From Flammeovirga pectinis (lineage in GTDB: Bacteria > Bacteroidota > Bacteroidia > Cytophagales > Flammeovirgaceae), in assembly GCF_003970675.1 (NCBI RefSeq), contig NZ_CP034562.1, forward strand, positions 4,535,501 to 4,599,500: 64,000 nt of DNA. The letters run 5' to 3'. Each line of letters begins with the position of its first letter. Within the stretch, counting starts at the first letter, position 1. Position numbers and translations under genes: made by a program. Positions 26,366-34,676 of the stretch are shown piece by piece. The notes below the pieces were generated by a model. It was not told the DNA's origin. It saw only the letters and a program-made list of their open reading frames with translations, and did not search any database.

Positions 26366-28255
26366 TTAACTTGGTTGATGGATAAATATCAATTCTTCCC
26401 ATCCTTTTTTTAATAATTCTTCTTCGGAACCTAGCTCATCACATTTTACTTTCATTGCTTCTTTAATCTTATTGTAAAATTTCCAACAGGTGTTAGGTCT
26501 CATTTTTAACATCTCTGCGAGTTTAGAAGAGGGAATGTTGCCTTTGTTTGCATATACAATAAATAGAAGAAGGAATGCATTTCTTATAGGAAAATGCAGA
26601 CGATGGAATAGCGTACCATTAGTAGCAGATTCATTATAGCTACATTTTTTACATCTTCTAGCTTCGTGCCCTTGTCCATTAGAGTAATCAGTACTTCCAC
26701 ATTTTTTACATGCAAATACATCATTCCATTTTATTTTAGCTAGGTATTTATAACATGAGATATCATCTGGAAATAATTCTTCAAACTCTTCAAAGCTAAC
26801 CTCTTTTAATAAAACACGTGCATTAGAGAGTTCAGATACATCATCGTGTAATTGTTCATTTTCAATGGTTAGTTTAGTGTTCATCTTCTCAATAGTACGT
26901 CTATGGTCTGTAAGCATTTTGTTTACAACCTCTAGCTCTTCATTTTTCTTAAAGATGATTTGTTTTTGGTTCTCGACCTCTTGGGTTCTATCAACTACTT
27001 TTGTCTCAATAATTTTTTCTCTTTCTTTTAAATTAGAGATGATCTTTTGCTGTGCTGCATCTTTTTCATCTTTATACAATTTAAAACTCTGAACAAGGCC
27101 AAGTGTCATTAAGAATACATTAATGATAAGCCCAATATTAAAAGCATACACATATATAATACTGTCTAAATAAAGGCCATATCCTCTTAATACCAGAAAA
27201 ATAACACCTAATATTATAGTACTATACCCACTGATAAAATAGTTTTGTTTAAATTTTTTCTTCATTATTAAATAGAGCATATACCCAAATACCAATAGAA
27301 ACGGAAGAAGATAAGTAGGAGCTTGCCATAAGAAATGATTAAAATCTCCGAAGATAAGTAAATAGCCAATATTGATAAAAACACTTATCCATATAGCTAT
27401 ATATATGTTTTTATGATCGCGTCTAATTTTTAAAAATGATGTTGAAAAGAGCACAACAGAGATCATAAACAAAGCTGGAGTAATCTGCTTAATCACATAA
27501 TTAAGATAAGGTGTATCGCCCCAAATGTATTGAAACCCTAAATTATCTTCTGATAAACCAACAAGCATACTACTAATTACAAAAAATGACAAGTAAATAG
27601 GGTAGCGTTCTTTTAAAGTAACAAACAGCATTAAGTTATAAATAGCAAGTAAGAAAAGCATCCCATAAAAGCCACCGAGTAGAATATACTCACCATTGGC
27701 ATATCGAATAAAAGATTTATCGTCTTTTACTTTATAAAGAAAGATGTTTTTAAAACGTGTTTTGTATTTAAGGTAAATTGTAAGCGAACTATTTTTAGTT
27801 ATTGGAGGGAGTGGAACAACAATATTTTTATGCGAATACAACCTTTTATTAAATTCAATATCATAACCACCTCTTGCCACAGCATTTATTTTGGCATCTC
27901 CTATTTGTTGATAGGCTTCAAAATAATCAATGTGACTATCTAAAACTTCTAAAAGTAGGTGCCCTTGATAAAGTCGTTCTCCGCTAAAAATCATTTTTAC
28001 CCAATACGTTTGTGCCGTATCCTGAATAATATAAAAGTGGTCATCTTCTCCATAAACTTTAAAGGGTTCATGTAGGGTTAAAATCTCATTTAAAGAGAAT
28101 GAATTACTGTTATCTTCAAAAATACCAATGGATTGTTTCTCAATAATCTGATCAATATTAATAGTATTTAAAGTAACGGTATCTAGTAGATGTGTTTTAC
28201 CATTTACATTTATACTAAAAAAAACAAGAGCGAATAGAAGAATTCTAAAAAGCAT
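26366..28255 (-). CDS. 7TMR-DISM sensor fused to IS1595-type zinc-ribbon/HTH
   Basis: A 629-residue membrane protein from the ATG at 28255 (an ATG at 28354 adds 33 residues before the signal peptide). In order: signal peptide (1-19); periplasmic 7TMR-DISM sensor (about 40-180); seven membrane helices (about 189-392); a coiled coil (about 393-485); then a module of about 100 residues matching the N-terminal part of IS1595-family transposases. That module has FEELFPDDISCYKYLAKIKW, a four-Cys zinc ribbon (Cys516, 519, 535, 538; ACKKCG and RCKKCS), GTLFHRLHFPIRNAF, and an HTH-like segment SSKLAEMLKMRPNTCWKFYN. The DDE nuclease domain is absent; the protein ends 35 residues later. It is divergent from the GH81 laminarinase, with a palindrome between. 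A membrane-tethered DNA-binding sensor is inferred. Confidence 0.8.
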   Translation of the reverse strand: MLFRILLFALVFFSINVNGKTHLLDTVTLNTINIDQIIEKQSIGIFEDNSNSFSLNEILTLHEPFKVYGEDDHFYIIQDTAQTYWVKMIFSGERLYQGHLLLEVLDSHIDYFEAYQQIGDAKINAVARGGYDIEFNKRLYSHKNIVVPLPPITKNSSLTIYLKYKTRFKNIFLYKVKDDKSFIRYANGEYILLGGFYGMLFLLAIYNLMLFVTLKERYPIYLSFFVISSMLVGLSEDNLGFQYIWGDTPYLNYVIKQITPALFMISVVLFSTSFLKIRRDHKNIYIAIWISVFINIGYLLIFGDFNHFLWQAPTYLLPFLLVFGYMLYLIMKKKFKQNYFISGYSTIILGVIFLVLRGYGLYLDSIIYVYAFNIGLIINVFLMTLGLVQSFKLYKDEKDAAQQKIISNLKEREKIIETKVVDRTQEVENQKQIIFKKNEELEVVNKMLTDHRRTIEKMNTKLTIENEQLHDDVSELSNARVLLKEVSFEEFEELFPDDISCYKYLAKIKWNDVFACKKCGSTDYSNGQGHEARRCKKCSYNESATNGTLFHRLHFPIRNAFLLLFIVYANKGNIPSSKLAEMLKMRPNTCWKFYNKIKEAMKVKCDELGSEEELLKKGWEELIFIHQPS

Positions 28256-28790
28256 TATGCTAAAAAAGTTAGTGATAAATAGATTAAGTAAGATTGATAT
28301 TGGAAGGAAAAAACGGTCTATTTTGCGATAGTTATTATTGTTGTAGACTTTCAAAAAAATCAGATGATTCTTAGTACTTACCTACCTGTAGACAATTAAT
28401 AAATAATTCTACTCATCAAAAAATATTCTGATCAATTTTACACCGAAAGACACATTTTTCGCCATTTTTTATGTTAAAACTATATTTTTTAGATGGATAA
28501 AAATTATAACCTTTTCAAATTTAATGTATTTTAAAATGCTGTAATACAGCATTTTAAATATTGTTTTTTAAGTGATAAAGTGGTTTTTATGTAAATTTTG
28601 AAGCTTATAAGTGATCCTATATGTTTGTTTTCTCAAGTTGCTAGCCGAAAGGCATAATAGATATTATCTAGATAAATTTTATGATTTGAAAAAGCGAACT
28701 ATTGACCGTGCACAAGAATGTAGTAAGCAAACCAATAACTATTGAATTGAGAGCCTACTCTAAAATAGGCTAATTATTACTTAACTAAAT
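28256..28790. promoter_or_regulatory. Divergent control region of sensor and GH81 genes
   Basis: 535 bases (436 if the longer sensor start is used). The main structured element is the palindrome at 28530-28558. No other gene or clear promoter box was found. Confidence 0.4.
28530..28558. promoter_or_regulatory. 29-bp palindrome, candidate operator
   Basis: Perfect 14-base arms TTTAAAATGCTGTA / TACAGCATTTTAAA around a single A. It is between divergent genes, so it does not end any gene here; a dimeric regulator site or a 5' leader hairpin of either gene is likely. Confidence 0.55.
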
Positions 28791-31700
28791 ATGAGAAAAA
28801 CAACTACGACTAAAATGGCTTTTTTATGGGCTGCTTTGTCTTTTATTGCACTTCAGTTTACCAGCTTTGCACAAGTAACTGGAGTAGGTAATGGGAGCTA
28901 CACTACTACTTTTCCTGGTACAGATGCAGCAGGTAGAAATTCATACCCATCAGGTACTCCTCAATTAAGTGAAAATGCTTTAGGGAGTCCTGTACCAACT
29001 AACGATTGGTGGTCTACTTTAATTCAAAGTGATCATGCATCGAATTTATTTAATTATCCGTTGGCAATGAAAACAACCAACGATGGACTAGTAATGAGTT
29101 ATATTTCATGGGGTGTTTTTGATGATTTATTACCCATCGTAGTAGGCGTTGATGGGTTAAATGCATCAAAAACAACAATTGCAGACCATAGTGATTGGAC
29201 TGTTACAATGGATTGGAACGATGCCTCTCACCATTTCCAGGCTACTTCTGGGATAGGTATGCCTTTTGTTTATTTCAATAAATCTACTGATGATCTTGCT
29301 CAGGTAACTGTTAATCATGGTACTGTAACGGTAGCTGAAGAGGTTTTGATTATTGAAAATGCAAGAGAAGGAGCTGACTTTGTTGTCTATGCACCAAGTG
29401 GTAGTGAGTGGACCTTAGAAGGAACAACTTACTCCTCTACTTTAAATGGAGAAAACTATTGGTCTATGGTAATGCTGCCCTTAACTACTTCAGATGTAAG
29501 TGCTGAAGCAACTAATTATCAAAAATATGCTTACGTATTCCCAGTTAACACAACAGCTAATTGGGATTTCAATGAGGCTTCATCTGTTTTAACAACTACA
29601 TTTTCTGTAGAGACAGATATTAAAGAGGGAAATTCAGAAGATATGCTTATTGGTTTACTTCCACATCAATGGGCTAATCTATCATCGACTTCAACACAAC
29701 CATCAATTATTAACTACTCAACTGTAAGAGGGGAACTCAAGATGATTGAGGGAACCTCTTTTGTAGTTGAAAACACCTTCCACGGTATATTACCAACGCT
29801 TCCTTATTTAAGCAATTATAGCGATGGGTTTGATGTATCAGCCTTAAATGATAAAGTAACGGCTTTAGAAAACGAGGGTCTAGCTTCTTGGACGGATTCT
29901 TACAATGAAGGACAAGCAATGAACCGCTTGATTCAAACGGCAAGAATAGCAGATTTATCTGGTAATACTGAGACAAGAGATAAATTAGTAGCAACTATAA
30001 AAGAACGTTTAGAAGATTGGCTAACAGCTGAAGAAGGTGAGGTTGCGTTCTTATTTTATTACAACGAAGATTGGTCAGCATTGTTAGGTTACCCTGCCGG
30101 TCATGGTCAGGATTCTAACTTAAATGATCATCATTTCCATTGGGGGTACTTTATTCATGCAGCTGCATTTATGGAACAGTATGAGCCGGGTTGGGCAGAC
30201 CAATACGGAGATATGATAAACTTATTAGTAAGAGATGCCTCTTCTCCAAATAGAGATGATGATACCTTCCCTTATTTAAGAAGCTTTAGTCCGTATGCAG
30301 GGCACTGTTGGGCTAATGGTTTTGCCTCTTTCCCACAAGGCAATGATCAAGAATCAACTTCTGAAAGTATGCAATTTCACTCTGCTTTAATTCACTGGGG
30401 AACGGTTACCGGCAATGATGAAATTAGAGATTTAGGTATCTACTTATACACTACAGAACAAACTGCTGTAGAAGAATATTGGTTCGATGTGAACGAACGC
30501 AATTTTAAAGATGATCAACCTTATAGTGTAGTATCTAGGGTTTGGGGAAATAGTTATGATAATGGAACATTTTGGACAGCAGATATTGCTGCTTCTTACA
30601 ATATAGAATTGTATCCAATTCATGGCGGTGCTTTGTATTTAGGACATAATACGCAATACGTAGAAAAATTATGGAATGAAATATCTGAAAATACGGATGT
30701 ATTAAACAAAATAGATAACCCAAATCTATGGTACGATGTGATGTGGAGCTACTTATCTTTTACAGATCCTGCTAAGGCAATTGATTTGTATAACGACTAT
30801 CCAGAAAGAGCAATGAAATTTGGTGTGGCAGATGCACAAACTTATTACTGGTTGCATAATATGAATGCAATGGGTAAGGTAGACGCAACAATTACTGCTG
30901 ATTACCCAATGGGTGTTGCTTTTAATAAAGAGGGAGAGATGACGTATGTAGCTCATAATTATGGAGATACAGAGATCTCTGTTTCTTTTTCTGATGGATA
31001 CGAACTAACTGTACCCGCAAATTCTACGGCAACAAACAGAGATGTTGATATAGAAGGTACTTTAGTAAGCAGTTTTAATCAGGCGGCTGTAAATGGAGCT
31101 GTTGATTTAACTGTAACTGTTGATGGGACTTCTCCTACAAAAGTAGAATTCTTTGATAAAGGAGAACTTTTAGGAGAAGTGACTTCATCACCATATACTT
31201 TTAAAGCGGAAAATTTAGCTGCAGGTGAGCATCAATTTTACACAAAAATTTATAATGAAGATGTGTTTGGTGTTTCTAATATTGTATCAGTTATTGTTGG
31301 TTTGCAAGTGCCTTTTGGAGGAGAGTCAACTGTAATTCCAGGTACTTTAGAAGCAGGTAATTTCGATACCTTCGAAGGAGGTTTAGGGCAGGGTGTAACA
31401 TATAGTGATCAGTCTGCCTTTAATGAGGGCAACTTTAGAGAAGAAGAATATGTTGATAATGTTTACGATGAAACGGAAGGTGCTACAGTAGGATGGACTG
31501 CAGCTGGAGAATGGATGGAATATACAGTAGAAGTAGAAACATCTGGTTTATATACTGTTTCATTTAGATATGCATCTGATAATGCAACAGGTGGACCTTT
31601 CTCTATCTCTTCTGATGGTGAAGTTGTAGCCGATGATATTTCGGTAACGTCTACTGGCGGATGGGGTACATGGGCAACAGGTGTTGTAGAAAATGTTCCA

Positions 31701-34676
31701 TTGTCAGCAGGAAAACATATTTTAAGAGTAGCTTTTAGTGATGGAGGTTTTAACTTAGGTCGCTTAACATTTGAGCTTTCTGGAGATTTACCATACAGTC
31801 AGCCAGTAGCCGATGCTGGAGACAATTTAATTATCAATTTATCTGGCGATGATACCATTTTAGATGCATCAAACAGTACAGATCCTGATAATGGAACTTT
31901 GACATTTGAATGGTCGCAAGTATATGGCCCAAGTGTGATTGAATTCTCGGATGCATCAAGTGCAATGCCAACGATCTATGCTTTAGTAGAGGGAACATAT
32001 TTAGTGGAGTTAACAGTAAATAACGGTGAATACACAAGTACAGATGAGTTGCTTTTAGTAGCAACTACAGACGGAACAATTGCTCCATCAGTTAGTTTAA
32101 CTGCACCAATGGATCAAGCATCATTTTATATTAATAAAGATATAACACTTTCTGCCACAGCCACTGATTTAGACGGTACTATAGCACAAGTTGAATTCTT
32201 TGTTGATGATGAATCTGTAGGAACTGTAACAGAAGCACCTTTTAATGTAGTTTGGGTGGCATCTGAAGCAAAAGAATATACAATCCATGCAGTAGCGACA
32301 GATAATGATGGAAAGTCTACAACCGCTCCATCTGTTCGTATTGTAACAGAAGATGCACCTCCATGTAGAGGTACTAGCGAAAACGGAGATTATGACTTTG
32401 AGTTTTCTGATGCCGCTGAGAATCCGACTTTAACATTCCACCCAAATCAAGAAGGAATGGGTTCACCGGTATGTATTTTATACTTATCAGTTAATGGAGG
32501 TGGCTATGGAGGCTATTCTGCAACAGCAGGAGACCCGTTCCAAGTTAATGCCGCTAATGGTAGCACAATATCTTTTTATTATACGTACACACATCCAGCA
32601 GGTGGAGAAAGAAATACATCAGCAAATCCTAATCAGTATATAGTAGGTTCTTGCGAAAACATAGTTGTAGATACTTCTATTCCAACAGTAGAAATTACCT
32701 CTCCAGAGAATGGTGAATTTATAAAAGAAGGTACAGCACTTACAATTACGGCATCTGCTAATGATGGAGACGGTACAGTTGCTCAAGTAGAATTTTTTGC
32801 AAATGGAAATTCGATTGGAGTAGTAACAGAAACTCCTTATGAAGTGGAATGGACTTTATTAAAAGGACAGGTTGTTCTTACTGCACAAGCTACTGATAAT
32901 GACGGGAAAATTGGCACATCTACAGAAATAAATATAGTAGGAACTTCGGCTTCAGCTTGTTATGAAGGTGTGGCAGCTAATGGCGATTTTGCTTACCTTT
33001 TCTCAGAAGATCTAGAGAACCCTACATTAACTTTACAACCACAAATTAGTGGTGCAGGAAGTAGCGTTTTAATTCTTTATTATTCTGTAGATGGTGTAGA
33101 TAAAGGAGGCCACAATGTAACGCCAAATGAACCGTTCCAATTAACAGCGGCAGAAGGTAGTACAATTACTTTCTATTATACCTATTCTCACCCGGAAGGA
33201 GGAGAGCGTAACACAATCGAAGATATAAAATCTTTTGAGGTGGGAAGTTGTAATGATGACAATGAAGATGATAATGTCGATCCAGAACCAAATGAGTTAA
33301 CTGTTTCTATACAGGCTCCAGTTGATGGAAGTGTATTAATTTATGGTAAGGAAGTAGCTATTACTGTAAATACATCCACAGAAAATGATGCTATTAAGCA
33401 AGTAGAATTTTTTGCTAATGATGTTTCTTTAGGCATTGAAACTACAGCACCTTATACCTTATTATGGTCTGCAAATGTAAATGGAACAGTAGCATTAAAA
33501 GTAGTTATTAGTGATGTAAATGATAACACTGCCACATCGGAAGTTGTAAATTTAACTTTAGGCGAAGTAACACCTTATGGAGGAACATCTTCTGCTATTC
33601 CTGGTGTAATTGAAGCAGCAAATTATGATGTATTTGAGTTAGGAAACGGACAAGGAGTTACTTATTTCGATACTTCAGAAAATAATGAAGGAAATTATAG
33701 GGCAGAAGAGTTTGTAGATGCTGTTTTAGGTGATGAAGAAGGAGCTACCATCGGATGGGTTGCACCTGGAGAGTGGTTACGATACTCTGTTGATGTTGCT
33801 ACAAAAGGGTTGTATTCTTTTGAGTTTAGATACGCATCAGATAACCAAGTTAGTCGTGGACCTTTTTACTTAGAAGTAGATGGCAATAAAGTAACCGGTG
33901 ATATTGAGGTAAGTACAACTGCTGGATGGAACAGTTGGGAAAGTAAGACAGTTTCTGATATAGAACTCTCAGCAGGTGAACATGTATTACGTGTTGTATT
34001 TATTGGAGGAGAATTTAACCTTGGTAAAATGACGTTCACTTTAGATGAGGAAATTGTAAACCTTTCTCCATCAATTGCATTAACTACAACAGCAACTACT
34101 TTTGAAGTAGGTACTTCGATATATCTTAATGTTGATGCAACAGATACAGACGGTACAATTGTTAAAGTAGAATACTTTATTGATGAGGTTTCAATGGGAT
34201 CATTTGATACCGCTCCTTATGTATTATCTTGGTTAGCAGATGCAGTTGGTACTTTTGAAATTACTGCTGTTGCAACAGATAATGAAGGAGGAACATCTGA
34301 ATCATCTGTAACAATAGAGATTACGACGATTGCTGATGATACAGACGACGATTCAGATAGTGACGATGACACGGATAATCCTGATGATTCTGACGATGAT
34401 GATGTAGATAATGATAACGGAGAAGTAACAGCAATTGATACTAATGAGGTAATAATATCTTATTATCCAAACCCTGTAACTCACTCGTTAACGATTGACC
34501 TTCCTGAATTAAATCAAAAGGTTGTTGTATTTAATTTAGACGGAAAAGTAATTGGTACTTTTGAATTAGGACAAGGTAAATCAGTTATTGATATGTCAAT
34601 GTATCAATCTGGAATTTACTTTATCAATATCCAAAATGATCAATATACAAAACAACTGAAAGTTGTAAAACAATAA
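28791..34676 (+). CDS. Multi-modular GH81 endo-beta-1,3-glucanase, T9SS secreted
   Basis: Endo-beta-1,3-glucanase (laminarinase) of 1961 residues. Signal peptide (about 1-27), then the GH81 catalytic region (about 40-750): Asp446 in DHHFHWGYF is the expected acid, Glu521/Glu525 in GNDQESTSESM the base, and YAGHCWANGFASFP is present. The tail, by residue: Ig-like (757-838), CBM6-like (842-996), PKD (1004-1092), Ig-like (1100-1187), CBM56-like (1190-1291), Ig-like (1298-1384), CBM56-like (1389-1488), Ig-like (1503-1590), CBM6-like (1594-1752), Ig-like (1758-1846), an Asp-rich linker (1849-1880) and a type IX sorting domain (from about 1884; YYPNPVTHSLTIDLP). CBM56 and CBM6 can bind beta-1,3-glucan. 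Ends at a strong terminator. Likely secreted to attack algal or fungal beta-1,3-glucan. Confidence 0.93.
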   Translation: MRKTTTTKMAFLWAALSFIALQFTSFAQVTGVGNGSYTTTFPGTDAAGRNSYPSGTPQLSENALGSPVPTNDWWSTLIQSDHASNLFNYPLAMKTTNDGLVMSYISWGVFDDLLPIVVGVDGLNASKTTIADHSDWTVTMDWNDASHHFQATSGIGMPFVYFNKSTDDLAQVTVNHGTVTVAEEVLIIENAREGADFVVYAPSGSEWTLEGTTYSSTLNGENYWSMVMLPLTTSDVSAEATNYQKYAYVFPVNTTANWDFNEASSVLTTTFSVETDIKEGNSEDMLIGLLPHQWANLSSTSTQPSIINYSTVRGELKMIEGTSFVVENTFHGILPTLPYLSNYSDGFDVSALNDKVTALENEGLASWTDSYNEGQAMNRLIQTARIADLSGNTETRDKLVATIKERLEDWLTAEEGEVAFLFYYNEDWSALLGYPAGHGQDSNLNDHHFHWGYFIHAAAFMEQYEPGWADQYGDMINLLVRDASSPNRDDDTFPYLRSFSPYAGHCWANGFASFPQGNDQESTSESMQFHSALIHWGTVTGNDEIRDLGIYLYTTEQTAVEEYWFDVNERNFKDDQPYSVVSRVWGNSYDNGTFWTADIAASYNIELYPIHGGALYLGHNTQYVEKLWNEISENTDVLNKIDNPNLWYDVMWSYLSFTDPAKAIDLYNDYPERAMKFGVADAQTYYWLHNMNAMGKVDATITADYPMGVAFNKEGEMTYVAHNYGDTEISVSFSDGYELTVPANSTATNRDVDIEGTLVSSFNQAAVNGAVDLTVTVDGTSPTKVEFFDKGELLGEVTSSPYTFKAENLAAGEHQFYTKIYNEDVFGVSNIVSVIVGLQVPFGGESTVIPGTLEAGNFDTFEGGLGQGVTYSDQSAFNEGNFREEEYVDNVYDETEGATVGWTAAGEWMEYTVEVETSGLYTVSFRYASDNATGGPFSISSDGEVVADDISVTSTGGWGTWATGVVENVPLSAGKHILRVAFSDGGFNLGRLTFELSGDLPYSQPVADAGDNLIINLSGDDTILDASNSTDPDNGTLTFEWSQVYGPSVIEFSDASSAMPTIYALVEGTYLVELTVNNGEYTSTDELLLVATTDGTIAPSVSLTAPMDQASFYINKDITLSATATDLDGTIAQVEFFVDDESVGTVTEAPFNVVWVASEAKEYTIHAVATDNDGKSTTAPSVRIVTEDAPPCRGTSENGDYDFEFSDAAENPTLTFHPNQEGMGSPVCILYLSVNGGGYGGYSATAGDPFQVNAANGSTISFYYTYTHPAGGERNTSANPNQYIVGSCENIVVDTSIPTVEITSPENGEFIKEGTALTITASANDGDGTVAQVEFFANGNSIGVVTETPYEVEWTLLKGQVVLTAQATDNDGKIGTSTEINIVGTSASACYEGVAANGDFAYLFSEDLENPTLTLQPQISGAGSSVLILYYSVDGVDKGGHNVTPNEPFQLTAAEGSTITFYYTYSHPEGGERNTIEDIKSFEVGSCNDDNEDDNVDPEPNELTVSIQAPVDGSVLIYGKEVAITVNTSTENDAIKQVEFFANDVSLGIETTAPYTLLWSANVNGTVALKVVISDVNDNTATSEVVNLTLGEVTPYGGTSSAIPGVIEAANYDVFELGNGQGVTYFDTSENNEGNYRAEEFVDAVLGDEEGATIGWVAPGEWLRYSVDVATKGLYSFEFRYASDNQVSRGPFYLEVDGNKVTGDIEVSTTAGWNSWESKTVSDIELSAGEHVLRVVFIGGEFNLGKMTFTLDEEIVNLSPSIALTTTATTFEVGTSIYLNVDATDTDGTIVKVEYFIDEVSMGSFDTAPYVLSWLADAVGTFEITAVATDNEGGTSESSVTIEITTIADDTDDDSDSDDDTDNPDDSDDDDVDNDNGEVTAIDTNEVIISYYPNPVTHSLTIDLPELNQKVVVFNLDGKVIGTFELGQGKSVIDMSMYQSGIYFINIQNDQYTKQLKVVKQ

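Follow-up and report, generated by a model that had tools for sequence, protein, structure and literature searches.

The window (the whole 64,000-nucleotide stretch of DNA from the marine bacterium Flammeovirga pectinis that was analysed) contains the gene of a fusion protein and, divergent to it, the gene of a GH81 glucanase, with a candidate operator between the two. The features of the locus are collected in Table 1.

Table 1. Features of the fusion-protein locus, in window coordinates.
Feature	Position	Strand	Remarks
Fusion-protein gene	26366..28255	-	Open frame, 629 aa, ATG start
Periplasmic sensor domain 7TMR-DISMED2, residues 41-169	27749..28135	-	Pfam PF07696, 2.8e-12; beta-rich in AlphaFold model
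Seven-helix membrane domain 7TMR-DISM_7TM, residues 189-388	27092..27691	-	Pfam PF07695, 3.1e-31
Long helix, residues 371-480, from last membrane helix into cytoplasmic coiled coil	26816..27145	-	AlphaFold
Zinc ribbon, residues 496-540, Cys 516, 519, 535, 538	26636..26770	-	Pfam PF12760 Zn_ribbon_IS1595
HTH part, residues 554-602	26450..26596	-	N-terminal part of NCBIfam NF033547; helices in AlphaFold model
Candidate operator copy 1 (weaker)	28485..28500	+	TTTTTTAGATGGATAA, 78 bp before copy 2
Palindrome between copies 1 and 2	28530..28558	.	14-bp arms, no mismatch
Candidate operator copy 2	28563..28578	+	GTTTTTTAAGTGATAA; identical in sister genome
GH81 glucanase gene, divergent; product with CBM6 domain, Ig domains and T9SS sorting tail	28791..34676	+	Pfam

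Domains of the fusion protein were assigned with Pfam and NCBIfam profiles. The DISMED2 match scored 47.2 bits against a Pfam cut-off of 22, as required of an extracellular DISMED domain, and the DISM_7TM match 109.4 bits against a cut-off of 29, as required of the membrane part of a 7TMR-DISM protein. A sequence-only reading of the window had proposed a DISM sensor with seven membrane helices, and both are thus found above the curated cut-offs. Zn_ribbon_IS1595 gave 30.1 bits, above its curated cut-off of 25.4, which qualifies the ribbon as one of IS1595 type. The IS1595 transposase profile NF033547 matched residues 554-602 only, with 19.6 bits (cut-off 75). Because its alignment covers positions 3-52 of 215, the HTH part is present and the DDE part missing; by Pfam and by this limited match no DDE nuclease was found, the protein stopping after the HTH. 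An IS1595-type zinc ribbon and HTH without nuclease is what the same reading had described, and the profile search that it proposed for the C-terminal module bears this out, with the NF033547 match partial and below cut-off. The fit of the four ribbon cysteines, to which it also pointed, was upheld: Cys 516, 519, 535 and 538 are invariant across 29 aligned full-length proteins, and the four cysteines are retained together with key HTH residues in 37 aligned modules. No histidine kinase or receiver domain was matched in the fusion protein by Pfam at E ≤ 1, so phosphotransfer is unlikely.

In the AlphaFold model of the whole protein, residues 371-480 form a single helix connecting the last membrane helix with the module; pLDDT falls below 50 at residues 458-485. 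The C-terminal 154 residues were modelled at a mean pLDDT of 90, with the expected ribbon and helices present. A structure search with the module using VIA-align gave a best Z of 4.2 (homeodomains and AsnC-type HTH), with an IstA transposase at 3.2, and the best Foldseek E was 0.5. Sequence search of the module against solved structures gave a best E of 0.015, to HTH proteins of other families and to ribosomal chains.

Two paralogues in the window's genome are built as the same fusion of DISM and module. In 80 loci from named records, found by alignment of the module only, the DISM part (home-made HMM) stands in the same frame in 78. A set of 29 fusions, the window protein among them, was picked for alignment; all 29 match both Pfam DISM domains, and 27 the ribbon at E ≤ 0.01. 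A join of two genes by chance or sequencing error, which would have refuted the sequence-only reading, is excluded by the paralogues and by the shared frame. The fusion is genuine, and the family to which it belongs is large and conserved.

Searches with the module as query hit 14 of the family's 18 genomes (E ≤ 0.001), 162 of the 390 sampled from the order (E ≤ 1e-5) and at least 51 of the 395 from the phylum (E ≤ 1e-10), transposases included throughout. The fusion is not a lone oddity: 60 of the 129 genera sampled in the order have a match to the module (again including transposases); named relatives with the module include Roseivirga, Chryseolinea, Ohtaekwangia, Fulvivirga and Xanthovirga. 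Most of the order-wide matches listed lie in long, stop-free frames of 600-700 residues. IS1595-type elements are present in related genomes, and a transposase fragment might in principle have been fused to a DISM gene recently, by accident and without function. We regard this as barely credible, since the junction, the cysteines and the HTH are the same across the order, the frames have stayed open and the paralogues have been kept. The phylum scan scored no more than ten candidates in any one genome and therefore gives minimum counts. In it, frames as long as the fusion (620-718 residues) were found in the order only, plus two genomes elsewhere in the class (G632 and G523), whose proteins are DISM fusions too. 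The remaining frames outside the order had 90-368 residues, transposase size or shorter. A first scan of genome contigs with the whole fusion protein as query found no relative.

A tree was calculated from 84 modules that remained after thinning. One group in it, with an SH-aLRT of 94, just below the starred level, unites 56 fused modules with a stand-alone copy of 137 residues (L318), and this group sits among the rows of IS1595-type transposases. Most of the 28 transposase-labelled rows were taken to retain their catalytic part, from their length and from inspection by eye, without a domain scan. The simplest reading, which the tree suggests, is one domestication; it is not proven, because the tree was made by a quick search over 139 columns, with no inferred root. 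Sensors have been swapped inside the fused group: L067 carries Reg_prop and Y_Y_Y propeller domains, the sensors of L157-L159 and L204 resemble its propeller form by eye, and L052 and L155 are short forms with one hydrophobic helix. The L052 gene (9807-10517 of the locus; G000:C1, ~948 kb) encodes a 236-residue protein of N-terminal hydrophobic helix, coiled coil and the same module, and is divergent to a GH18-GH19 chitinase gene.

Several observations concern the transposases themselves. In one Flammeovirga genome (G004, L145-L149) 20 matches lie in frames of 154-190 residues of an IS1595-type element, many at contig ends. L107 and L077 hold IS1595-type transposase genes whose module is similar to that of the regulators; near both are neighbouring gene pairs (clusters c31 and c32) of efflux-pump size, for which no domain scan was done. 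Inverted repeats were found beside several transposases in a TIR search limited to transposase loci. A likeness between the operator repeats described below and the ends of IS1595-type elements was considered and rejected, as none was obvious by eye; no statistics were calculated.

The neighbourhood of the fusions was surveyed, as the sequence-only reading had advised, in two sets. 57 fusions (56 DISM, 1 propeller) were hand-chosen across the order for strength and spread, near relatives being left unthinned. SusC/SusD genes lie within 1 kb of 28 of these; in 26 they follow the fusion directly in the same orientation, 227-828 bp downstream. The enlarged set started from 144 module proteins, of which 136 remained without identical modules; 126 were DISM fusions and 110 had at least 4 kb of downstream DNA. 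Its second part came from one search alignment, weighted toward Cyclobacteriaceae and kin. SusC/SusD was found within 1 kb of 76 of the 110 DISM fusions of this conserved family (directly downstream in 72), and the other 34 loci had none within 1 kb. As a control, the five other DISM proteins of the window's genome are at least 18 kb from the nearest SusD. SusD counts in 47 genomes ranged from 0 to at least ~40 per genome. By this count two module-bearing genomes (G076 and G078) have no SusD at all. In several others, with just 6-9 SusD genes each (G128, G228, G090, G303 and G151), the fusion lies upstream of a SusC.

The window gene itself adjoins genes of glycan utilization, with GH81 next door, and so meets the requirement of a PUL location. 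Families among the scanned neighbour proteins (29) include GH81, GH3, GH16, GH30, GH5, PF10091, GH18, GH19, GH43, GH10 and GH67. Neighbour enzymes in Flammeovirga (GH3, GH16, GH81) point to beta-glucans; those elsewhere (GH18/GH19, GH43, GH10/GH67) point to chitin, xylan and other glycans. The third paralogue in the window's genome heads an operon of PfkB kinase, sugar transporter and ADP-ribosylglycohydrolase. The neighbours of L086 are OmpA-like and DUF2339 proteins, with no glycan enzymes.

Alignment of the Flammeovirga regions between regulator and SusC revealed an element, TTTTTTTAARTGATA, in two copies 80 bp apart. This spacing had a z of 8.6 in 7 regions of the family. A repeat model made from ten sites in five Flammeovirga regions found the window, the sister genome and the two genomes' pfkB loci (4/4, p at the floor of 0.005). 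On other SusC promoters of the window's genome it gave 1/29 at p ≤ 0.01 and 2/29 at p ≤ 0.05. The core of copy 2 in the window, TTTTTTAAGTGATA, occurs four times without mismatch in 6.68 Mb, this copy included.

The sequence-only reading had placed the binding site on the palindrome at 28530-28558, and this palindrome exists. Its arms are perfect, and its 17-base core has no other exact copy in the genome, other matches being found only at exactly two mismatches. It could therefore be held that the palindrome is the operator and the direct repeats incidental. In the closest relative, the sister genome, the site is not palindromic while copy 2 is unchanged, and the palindrome was rejected as main operator for lack of conservation there; the conserved part is the flanking direct repeats. 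The same spot between the repeats is weakly palindromic in other operators (0.46 with the window, mean 0.32), but without the window row the value is only 0.43, third of the axes listed. That the palindrome alone is the operator is thus very improbable; it may be an accessory part of one. A long inverted repeat between operator copies was also seen by eye at a SusC gene (L312:7118-7206; G000:C2, ~777 kb), as in the window.

Nine Flammeovirga genomes were searched with a strict pattern for the repeat pair, yielding 14 hits against 1 for the reversed pattern. Nine of the 14 are at module genes, five of these being the loci used to read the motif. Other hits lie upstream of GH81 in G003, upstream of the same CBM6/GH16 operon in two genomes, and at one SusC/SusD pair. 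One further hit (L299, G008:C99:239420) lies between genes judged by eye to be uvrA-like and acyltransferase-like, with no glycan gene in view. In the window's genome the pair has 5 occurrences and its reversed form 0; the 5 are at 3/3 DISM-module genes, at the CBM6/GH16 operon and at the SusC/SusD pair. Outside the genus, the pair was found in 1/4 module-bearing genomes of the family (G016, at its regulator-SusC locus).

The pair is present at each of the nine GH81 orthologues found in the genus, with a spacing of 78-81 bp and its first copy 299-324 bp before the start codon. Each pair has p at the floor of 0.0033; the sequences are related and are not independent tests. Two GH81 paralogues are without the pair (p 0.86 and 0.58). 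Seven of the nine genomes have their module genes on a different contig or at a great distance, and no DISM gene was found in the 1.3 kb upstream of GH81 there. The divergent GH81 gene had been named as a candidate target from its position alone; the link is now stronger, since in seven genomes the candidate operator is kept in front of GH81 with the regulator gene located elsewhere. GH81 is likely a target of the putative regulator.

The Flammeovirga model was applied to 75 further regulator-to-SusC regions, mostly of other families; 18 had p ≤ 0.05 and 5 had p ≤ 0.01. By these scores the model fits the regions of other families weakly. A motif-free spacing analysis was done on 62 regions (24 Cyclobacteriaceae, 8 of family f19, 7 Fulvivirgaceae, 6 Flammeovirgaceae and smaller groups), producing peaks at 65 and 66 bp with z of 11.0 and 8.8. 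Two TGTTTTT motifs 63-69 bp apart are present in 37/62 regions; 200 shuffled sets averaged 0.07 such regions and never exceeded 1. The pair was absent from 29 other SusC promoters of the window's genome, a control outside the lineages of the 62-region set, and from both of the other SusC promoters of the same lineages (0/2), a control of two sequences only. When related modules were thinned, counts at the best spacing of 65/66 fell from 23.5/62 to 12.8/37, 5.5/23 and 1.5/16, with 0.84, 0.50, 0.31 and 0.22 expected at the same levels. The spacing signal weakens on thinning and remains above expectation. No spacing peak was found in f13 (5 regions), in f11 (4 regions) or in controls.

There are no binding data, and the repeats are known from sequence only. 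The protein could thus be a glycan-linked membrane signal protein whose zinc ribbon and HTH have a protein or RNA target or a merely structural role, with the repeats bound by another factor; the L312 SusC promoter has repeats with no adjacent module gene. The repeats nevertheless accompany every DISM-module locus of the window's genome though the targets differ (SusC, GH81, pfkB operon), and the TGTTTTT pair marks 37 of the 62 regulator-to-SusC regions of the mixed set and none of the 29 other SusC promoters of that genome. Five family genomes without an intact module gene gave two with one pair hit each, both inside open reading frames, and the module is kin to the DNA-binding part of a transposase. 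Another factor at the repeats is accordingly an unlikely explanation.

We hold instead, with good though incomplete confidence, that the protein is a membrane-held one-component regulator activating glycan genes through two direct repeats. The DISMED2 domain observed in the periplasmic part would sense a product of glycan degradation, the inferred ligand being most probably an oligosaccharide of beta-glucan. The signal would pass through the seven membrane helices into the continuous cytoplasmic helix, which is taken to pair in an inferred dimer, and would so reach the zinc ribbon and HTH, whose kinship to IS1595 is observed. The module is inferred to bind the two direct repeats seen ~78-81 bp apart upstream of a target gene, and then to activate that gene, the sign of control also being an inference. 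Targets at the glycan loci would be GH81 here and, elsewhere in the genome, a locus with SusC/SusD, GH3 and GH16, and further genes. No phosphotransfer domain would take part in this route.

For the family as a whole, we consider it probable, with some reserve, that a single domestication of an IS1595-type module in Cytophagales gave rise to a class of membrane-held glycan-locus regulators. Its members would carry sensors of three or more types (DISM with seven helices, propeller of Reg_prop/Y_Y_Y, single helix), use no phosphotransfer, and act on operators of two direct repeats with lineage-fixed spacing, ~80 bp in Flammeovirga and 65-66 bp in a mixed set of other Cytophagales.

The regulators known for polysaccharide loci in Bacteroidota are mainly SusR, hybrid two-component systems and sigma/anti-sigma pairs. 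The Bacteroides hybrid systems are single-chain membrane regulators of polysaccharide utilization genes and carry histidine kinase and receiver (PMC11253607), whereas the fusion protein is without both. The same DISMED2 and DISM_7TM sensor is known from 7TMR-DISM receptors such as Pseudomonas NicD (DISMED2, 7TM, GGDEF), in which DISMED2 is stated to have been linked to direct carbohydrate binding (PMC8544897); the output of NicD is a diguanylate cyclase, that of the fusion a DNA-binding module. A precedent for a DISM sensor with a DNA-binding domain is the ChiS family of proteobacteria, in which the 7TMR-DISM sensor is joined to a different DNA-binding domain, with no transposase origin mentioned in the available part of the text (PMC8092284). 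IS1595-family transposases (PF12760, NF033547) share the zinc ribbon and HTH, and one full-length transposase from the order (G336, L150) is 45% identical over ~120 residues. The fusion differs from them in having no DDE part, in its C-terminal module behind a membrane sensor, and in its separate group in the tree. No description of a fusion of DISM and IS1595 module was found in open-access full text, subscription papers and supplements being outside the search; the accessible part of PMC10766802 does not mention 7TM or transposase. What is new is the output module of transposase origin, together with its spread and the operator; a DISM sensor with another DNA-binding domain and single-chain glycan regulators are known.

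If the proposed reading is true, a further class of regulator would exist in environmental degraders of laminarin and other glycans. It would also be a clear bacterial case of the DNA-binding part of a transposase turned into a modular output domain. The candidate operator is exact, and control from membrane to DNA without phosphotransfer would thereby be directly testable.
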